The translations under genes and the position numbers were made by a program. Under the pieces are notes generated by a model that worked only from the letters and a program-made list of their open reading frames with translations, did not search any database and was not told the origin of the DNA. DNA of 64,000 nucleotides, from positions 1-64,000 of the forward strand of contig CAMBIX010000012.1 of NCBI GenBank assembly GCA_945867815.1, in the 5' to 3' direction. Positions 34,634 to 35,507 of this stretch are shown here, piece by piece (the first letter of the stretch is position 1; each line of letters opens with the position of its first letter). Source of the DNA: an uncultured Veillonellaceae bacterium. Lineage in GTDB: Bacteria; Bacillota; Negativicutes; Veillonellales; Veillonellaceae.

Positions 34634-34648
34634 ATTTAATATATACTA

Positions 34649-34678
34649 AGATGTCTAGGTAATAGACATCTTTTTTTA
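34649..34678 (+). terminator. Terminator of tRNA-Leu
   Basis: AAGATGTCTA pairs with TAGACATCTT followed by TTTTT. Confidence 0.9.
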
Positions 34679-34691
34679 TTGATAAAATTTA

Positions 34692-34720
34692 TTGACAAGA
34701 TTTTTAATCAGTGGTACATT
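34692..34720 (+). promoter_or_regulatory. Promoter of the cobalamin riboswitch RNA
   Basis: TTGACA (34692-34697), 17-bp spacer, TACATT (34715-34720). It is 70 bp before the first riboswitch stem. Confidence 0.7.
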
Positions 34721-34790: not shown

Positions 34791-34931
34791 ATAGGTGCTA
34801 TATGCATAACAGAGAATCTGGTGTAAGTCCAGAGCGGTCCCGCCACTGTAAGATGGAGCAATACGATTATGTCACTGGGCAACTGGGAAGGCTGATATTG
34901 CGGTGAAGTCAAGTCAGGAGAACTACCTATT
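34791..34931 (+). promoter_or_regulatory. Cobalamin riboswitch (orphan)
   Basis: The class hallmarks are in order: P1 arm AATAGGT (34791-34797) with ACCTATT (34925-34931); AACAGAGAATCTGGTGTAAG followed by TCCAGAGCGGTCCCGCCACT, the conserved core; then GTCACTGGGCAACTGGGAAG; and the B12-box-like AAGTCAGGAGAACTACC. This aptamer senses adenosyl- or methylcobalamin and normally controls B12 uptake or synthesis genes. Here no coding region with a ribosome binding site follows before the next terminator at 35165 and the tRNA genes, so its target is not obvious. Confidence 0.92.
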
Positions 34932-35164
34932 CATCATTCACCACTTGACCTACGAGCGATGGGGAGGAGAATCGATAGATCCTTTTTGTACGTTAGCAAG
35001 TGCAGAAAGGCTTTTTTTATAGCTAGGCACTTGACTATTGTTAGAATAAAGGCACTTGTAAAAATCCACCTAGTGACGAGGGCGTGGTGATAACAGATTG
35101 GTATTATCACTTCGGTGTTAATATAAGTTGTCATTAGGTGTATGGGCATACATCAACAATTACA
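34932..35164 (+). ncRNA. Structured RNA downstream of the riboswitch, no ORF
   Basis: Two nested structures are visible. CAAGTGC near 34997 pairs with GCACTTG near 35027 around a T-rich loop. CACCTAGTGAC (35067-35077) pairs with GTCATTAGGTG (35130-35140) as an 11-bp stem with one wobble, enclosing a GTGATAA/TTATCAC hairpin. Open frames here are short and lack ribosome binding sites. It could be an expression platform, a riboswitch-controlled small RNA, or the leader of a deleted gene. Confidence 0.5.
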
Positions 35165-35197
35165 AAAGAGCCGGCTTTGATGGCCGGCTTTTTTGTT
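35165..35197 (+). terminator. Terminator ending the riboswitch transcript
   Basis: AAAGAGCCGGC pairs with GGCCGGCTTTTTT around TTTGAT; the T run is clear. Confidence 0.93.
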
Positions 35198-35339: not shown

Positions 35340-35415
35340 AGGGGTATAGCTCAATTGGTAGAGTAGCGGTCTCCAAAACCGTTGGTTGTGGGTTCAAGTC
35401 CTACTGCCCCTGCCA
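35340..35415 (+). tRNA. tRNA-Trp, anticodon CCA
   Basis: Acceptor AGGGGTA pairs with TGCCCCT. The anticodon loop is CTCCAAA (anticodon CCA), the T-loop is TTCAAGT, and CCA is encoded. Confidence 0.95.
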
Positions 35416-35430
35416 ACTTTAACTACATAT

Positions 35431-35507
35431 GACTCAGTAGCTCAGCTGGATAGAGCGTTTGACTACGAATCAAAAGGCCGGGGGTTCGAATCCCTCCTGG
35501 GTCACCA
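35431..35507 (+). tRNA. tRNA-Arg, anticodon ACG
   Basis: Acceptor GACTCAG pairs with CTGGGTC (one wobble). The anticodon loop is CTACGAA (anticodon ACG, read as ICG after deamination by TadA), the T-loop is TTCGAAT, and CCA is encoded. Only 15 bp separate it from tRNA-Trp, so the two are one transcript. Confidence 0.95.

Follow-up and report, generated by a model that had tools for sequence, protein, structure and literature searches.

A Cobalamin Riboswitch Predicted to Control a Trans-Acting Antisense RNA in the Veillonellaceae

Introduction

To our knowledge, almost every riboswitch lies in cis to a gene. An exception is present in the window analysed here, a stretch of 64,000 nucleotides from an uncultured Veillonellaceae bacterium, in which a cobalamin aptamer and two terminators stand without a gene; the missing gene had been observed before in a sequence-only reading. 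The Veillonella family inhabits the human mouth and gut, and its propionate metabolism depends on B12. We analysed the locus in the window genome and its relatives and consider it quite probable that it encodes, as a gene in its own right, an antisense small RNA (sRNA) that acts in trans and is under cobalamin riboswitch control.

Results and Discussion

The aptamer covers the full-length RF00174 model at a score well above the gathering score of 31.5 bits (Table 1), and a profile search found no second match in the 1.97 Mb window genome. Upstream, a promoter-like site, recognised by consensus scan only, comes after the terminator (34648–34672) with which the preceding tRNA-Leu gene ends. The sequence behind the aptamer (34945–35197) folds better than all 200 dinucleotide shuffles (z = −5.2), and new promoter-like sites lie after the final terminator and upstream of the tRNA-Trp/tRNA-Arg pair. 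No open reading frame (ORF) with a Shine-Dalgarno sequence is conserved across the relatives, most of which have no ORF in the module at all. The sequence-only reading had described a full cobalamin aptamer with its own promoter, followed by two hairpins, a strong terminator and tRNA genes with no ORF bearing a ribosome binding site between, and this description held up, the promoter as a consensus match and the terminator in the terminator scan as well. The first hairpin, a terminator-like site (34981–35010) with a T-run, is real too, but it belongs to the expression platform of the riboswitch and not to the downstream RNA.

Table 1. Features of the locus, in positions of the window.
Feature	Position	Strand	Evidence or remark
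Promoter-like site, TTGACA (34692), 17 nt, TACATT (ends 34720), TG before −10	34692–34720	+	consensus scan
Cobalamin riboswitch aptamer, RF00174	34776–34944	+	cmscan 98.3 bits, full-length model
P13 hairpin, CGAU-GGGGAGGAGA-AUCG	34957–34974	+	sequence
Putative riboswitch-controlled intrinsic terminator, hairpin 34981–35010 and T-run	34980–35018	+	terminator scan
Putative noncoding RNA module released by read-through, with own terminator	35019–35197	+	fold z-score, conservation, no conserved ORF
Conserved core, covariance model R1	35098–35167	+	1 copy in each of 28 family genomes
Hairpin H1, 35102–35110 with 35115–35123	35102–35123	+	98% of cells paired
Segment predicted to pair with the LysR 5′ leader (G000:C1:452763)	35124–35165	+	duplex energy
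Apical hairpin with GGGC in loop (UGUAUGGGCAUACA), belonging to target-pairing segment	35137–35154	+	alignment
Final intrinsic terminator of sRNA, AGCCGGC-UUUGAUG-GCCGGCU and U-run	about 35164–35194	+	fold and terminator scan
tRNA-Trp	35340–35415		downstream of module
tRNA-Arg	35431–35507		downstream of module

The expression platform

The motif TTGACCTACGAGNGATRGGGAGGAGA around the P13 hairpin is near-invariant across the family. Its loop L13 (34961–34970), which reads GGGGAGGAG in the window and AGGGAGGAG elsewhere, is able to kiss the aptamer loop L5 (GGGA/UCCC), whose UCCC belongs to a UCCCG that is kept in the relatives as well. L13 is also complementary to the 5′ arm of the terminator (UCCUUUUU, 34980–34987), so that an antiterminator is possible; this complementarity amounts to 6–9 bp in all distinct family sequences tested, and the terminator itself can be read in all family genomes. 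The conserved aptamer is hence accompanied by a predicted L5–L13 kissing hairpin and by what appear to be all parts of a ligand-responsive terminator/antiterminator platform. With abundant B12, the aptamer would bind its ligand, L5 would kiss L13 and the terminator would form, leaving the riboswitch alone to be made, while with scarce B12 the free L13 (GGGGAGGA) would pair with the terminator 5′ arm and let RNA polymerase read through into an RNA that contains the module 35019–35197 and stops at the module's own terminator. As ligand-stabilised kissing would remove the antiterminator, we infer an OFF logic, in which the downstream RNA is expected when B12 is low. In B. subtilis, where riboswitch reporters counted as functional when corrinoids repressed them, the mutA riboswitch of V. 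parvula was one of the functional ones, and a predicted terminator was found in 37 of these 38 (PMC9600662). We also observed cobalamin riboswitches before mutA, encoding the B12-dependent methylmalonyl-CoA mutase, in V. parvula (L089) and in a related family (L029, L030), an unusual position should B12 turn the switch off.

The RNA module and its distribution

The core at 35098–35167 is the most conserved portion of the module. Its hairpin H1 is kept in all family genomes with C-G, G-C or A-U as the closing pair. It scores higher for covariation than any of 500 shuffles, but covariation within the RNA is modest, with no more than two pairs changing on both sides. The long outer stem of the sequence-only reading (35067–35077/35130–35140) looks, by eye on the alignment, reduced to a short UCAUG/CAUGA core in two other genera (g2 and g3 below) and is not evident in Veillonella proper (g4); much of the 35067–35140 stem is specific to the window genus. 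No Rfam match to the module reached the gathering score, and the sub-threshold matches were fragmentary and terminator-driven and were rejected.

We compared 28 Veillonellaceae genomes from four genera, namely the window genome (g1), six genomes of g2, seven of g3 and 14 of Veillonella proper (g4). Aptamer, P13, terminator, module and second terminator are present once each in all 28. A DNA search in the relatives returned the segment directly 3′ of the aptamer and a second conserved block (query 154–209), and carriers named by a pattern scan include Veillonella parvula, atypica, tobetsuensis, ratti, seminalis (a g3 species), magna, montpellierensis and others. In V. parvula SKV38 the module occupies G015:C1:615757–615839. 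Searched with the covariance model of the core, every family genome (28/28), the window genome among them, gave exactly one match, whereas 33 further genomes of the order gave no match; as the training sequences of the model are among the 28, only the single copy and the absence elsewhere are informative. The downstream neighbours differ in identity and strand between relatives, and tRNA-Leu occurs in the same orientation, in the opposite one or elsewhere.

A LysR leader as predicted target

Targets were sought among 2,017 leaders from nearly the whole window genome (1.95 Mb), which was the one genome scanned in this way and also supplied the background leaders for the other genera. With the sRNA's own antisense set aside, the leader of a LysR-family gene (G000:C1:452763) ranks first of 2,016 for duplex formation at −38.8 kcal/mol, the next leader reaching −30.7 kcal/mol (mean −17.8, sd 3.6), and none of 2,000 shuffles of either partner attains this value. 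The match extends over some 40 nt and consists of several blocks. In all 14 genomes of g1–g3 the orthologous LysR leaders form a predicted duplex of −35 to −45 kcal/mol with their own sRNA, and in a matrix of sRNAs and leaders across genera the own-genus combination is the best (−43.4 in g1, −43.6 in g2 and −38.5 in g3), with a compensatory A-U/G-C change that gives GGGCA/UGCCC in g1 and GGGCG/CGCCC in g2 and g3. The g4 combination stays at background (−18.9), in agreement with a g4 sRNA that has lost the UUGUCAUGA block. In structure-aware cofolding with a shorter module the LysR leader outperforms all 250 sampled leaders, and when the full structure of 35018–35197 is counted its rank among the 2,017 leaders of the window genome falls to 143.

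Of the LysR gene itself, only the DNA-binding part is left in the window genome (G000:C1:452763–453053, L333, 96 aa) and in V. magna (L337:1501–1788, 95 aa), cut at the same point and with no trace of the effector domain, the protein of other relatives having about 300 aa. Its function in these two genomes is uncertain because it is reduced to the helix-turn-helix part.

Further candidate targets

In Veillonella proper the sRNA tail before the final terminator reads GCATGCATTTATTCATCATCATCC, the reverse complement of which is the 14-mer AGGATGATGATGAA. Nine g4 genomes carry this 14-mer at the sRNA and in the 5′ leader of a gene for a 200-aa NIR_SIR protein (PF01077), just upstream of the Shine-Dalgarno sequence, where the match extends as AGGATGATGATGAATAAGCATGC or a close form. 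Elsewhere in g4 the 14-mer is nearly confined to this leader, with one further match (L121) outside it, and a reversed control gave no matches. The predicted duplex with the NIR_SIR leader reaches −37 to −45 kcal/mol in 13 of the 14 g4 genomes and −37 kcal/mol in all six of g2, and stays at background elsewhere; for the four g4 genomes tested, neither any of 2,016 background leaders nor any of 250 structure-aware cofold controls does as well. The orthologous g2 leader has a different complementary stretch, TAGGA-ATGTACGCCCATACA, which matches the hairpin of the g2 sRNA, and this genus thus has both a LysR and a NIR_SIR leader complementary to its own sRNA. For the window genome NIR_SIR was not supported as a target (−12.5 to −25 kcal/mol).

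The 14-mer TGTACGCCCATACA is found exactly twice per genome, at the sRNA and in one target leader, in every g2 genome and in six of seven g3 genomes. In these six g3 genomes the leader with the perfect 14-mer is that of an AraC regulator with a PocR domain. The pairing energy is ordinary, 99 of 2,016 background leaders being as good, and pocR as a target of g3 is the less certain proposal, which draws on the unique perfect 14-mer and might involve a kissing interaction outside the reach of the energy models used. Complementarity to pocR was found neither in Veillonella proper nor in V. magna, and a search for a PocR orthologue in the window genome gave no match.

Three other motif matches were set aside, namely those of TACATGCCCTACAT in five Veillonella genomes, which lie within coding sequence, that of TCTATGCCCATACA in the window genome, which gave no target-gene reading, and an AT-rich 14-mer before rplT in the window genome. 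The sRNA of V. montpellierensis (G026:C1:48979–49049) differs from those of the other g4 members; it pairs with neither the LysR nor the NIR_SIR leader, and no clear target was seen among them.

A trans-acting antisense RNA and its alternatives

The architecture of the locus, its conservation and the complementarities are directly seen in the genomes. With a promoter (by consensus only) and a terminator of its own, no conserved ORF and a location apart from its presumed targets, the locus has the properties expected of a trans-encoded sRNA, and the predicted complementarity to target leaders is conserved and accompanied by covariation. In the cell, the GGGC hairpin, the upstream UUGUCAU block and the tail would pair with a few distant mRNA 5′ leaders just upstream of the Shine-Dalgarno sequence. 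A LysR-family regulator would be a target in the window genus and two others, a small iron-sulphur/sirohaem-type NIR_SIR protein would be one in Veillonella proper and in a further genus, and pocR, the less certain candidate, would be one in a single genus. Since the pairing lies mostly upstream of the Shine-Dalgarno sequence and no obvious anti-Shine-Dalgarno sequence is there to be released, we lean towards repression of the targets at low B12, the direction being a guess. We think it likely that the sRNA is family-wide and connects B12 status with LysR-type and PocR regulators and a sirohaem-type enzyme, with a set of targets that changes by gain and loss from genus to genus as the sRNA and the leaders evolve together.

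The shared motifs might instead be DNA operator sites of one transcription factor that act without RNA pairing, as the sRNA gene and the target leaders share TGTAnGGGCrTACA, a partly palindromic motif. We regard this as unlikely, because the target copies are antisense and just upstream of the Shine-Dalgarno sequence in all target classes, the g4 match is not palindromic and the LysR match extends over several blocks that covary by genus.

Somewhat less plausible still is an RNA that sequesters an ANTAR or other RNA-binding regulator at low B12. In Enterococcus and Listeria, the stand-alone cobalamin riboswitch of EutX/Rli55 likewise decides on the synthesis of a downstream noncoding RNA, which sequesters the ANTAR protein EutV via a dual hairpin (PMC5821096). 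The layout of aptamer, terminator and short noncoding RNA is shared, and an ANTAR protein match (PF03861), putative as EutV, is present in all 28 family genomes. The paired A1/G4 hexaloop hairpins, however, are absent from all 51 locus records covering the family in a scan that recovers a synthetic control, the hairpin loops of the module being variable tetraloops or GGGC loops; a sponge would also leave the genus-specific antisense complementarity unexplained, and what are likely the real eut-type ANTAR loci, with a weak cobalamin match of their own, lie separately in some g3 genomes. Of the sequence-only proposal of an independent cobalamin riboswitch that controls a regulatory RNA of the EutX/Rli55 kind, the riboswitch and the RNA without a gene stand in all 28 genomes, while the titration of a regulator protein gives way to pairing with mRNA leaders. 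In two g3 genomes we observed a second, stronger ANTAR match and a sub-threshold cobalamin match of about 30 bits that lie some 2.5 kb apart (G008:C5:141271–143965 and G005:C24:18386–21119), and some g3 species possibly have a true eut/EutX locus at such sites.

A deletion relic, the leader that would remain after the loss of a gene regulated by B12, had been the earlier alternative and now appears very improbable. Other families do have a similar aptamer and P13 before mutA (L029, L030) or a TonB-receptor gene, and the ancestral riboswitch was therefore probably cis-acting, but the proposed synteny check found the same RNA and no gene at this place in any of the 28 family genomes, and module and second terminator are kept across four genera while the neighbours change. 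The noncoding arrangement probably arose once, in an ancestor of the Veillonellaceae, from a cis-acting riboswitch. In Selenomonas and Centipeda (L064, L075, L083) a near-identical P13 is followed by different hairpins and a gene that we take, from its sequence, to encode a TonB receptor.

Control of a small peptide or of the downstream tRNA genes is just as improbable, for although some genomes have readable short ORFs and tRNA genes follow in the window, no ORF is conserved, a terminator and new promoters separate the module from the tRNA genes, and tRNA-Leu varies in orientation and position among the relatives.

Relation to known systems

A trans-acting antisense sRNA would resemble, in its control, aspocR of Listeria monocytogenes, an antisense RNA to pocR that a B12 riboswitch controls (Mellin et al. 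2013, as described in PMC8079631). There too a cobalamin OFF riboswitch controls a noncoding RNA that is long at low B12 and thought to pair with a regulator mRNA, and pocR is also a candidate target of the Veillonellaceae sRNA in one genus. The RNA aspocR is cis-encoded opposite pocR, with 1,400 nt and full complementarity, whereas the Veillonellaceae sRNA is encoded far from its presumed targets, would pair in short blocks with leaders and has predicted targets that differ by genus; its locus does not lie opposite pocR, the neighbours in the window being tRNA and unrelated genes. From EutX/Rli55 it differs in the absent dual hairpin and the mRNA complementarity in its place. SreA, derived from a Listeria SAM riboswitch, likewise pairs in trans with a regulator leader, that of prfA, but is the terminated riboswitch fragment itself, is made with ligand and controls genes in cis as well (PMC8079631), whereas the active part of the Veillonellaceae RNA would be a module of its own, synthesised without ligand. 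The Veillonella potE motif lies upstream of potE, with an AdoCbl riboswitch downstream of that gene (PMC8632094), and by this description only we take it to be a different locus. A literature search that left most subscription journals outside found no report of the Veillonellaceae sRNA.

Conclusion

A riboswitch-controlled regulatory RNA that would represent a new variant of the mechanism is well supported by the comparison of sequences. Of the cobalamin riboswitches reviewed as controlling an RNA, that of EutX/Rli55 produces a sponge for a protein and that of aspocR an antisense RNA encoded in cis. Four genera with apparently co-evolving pairs of sRNA and target provide natural test material, with specific targets to address in V. 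parvula. If our reading is true, a trans-encoded base-pairing sRNA is switched by B12 throughout the Veillonella family, showing how one riboswitch may reach several distant genes.
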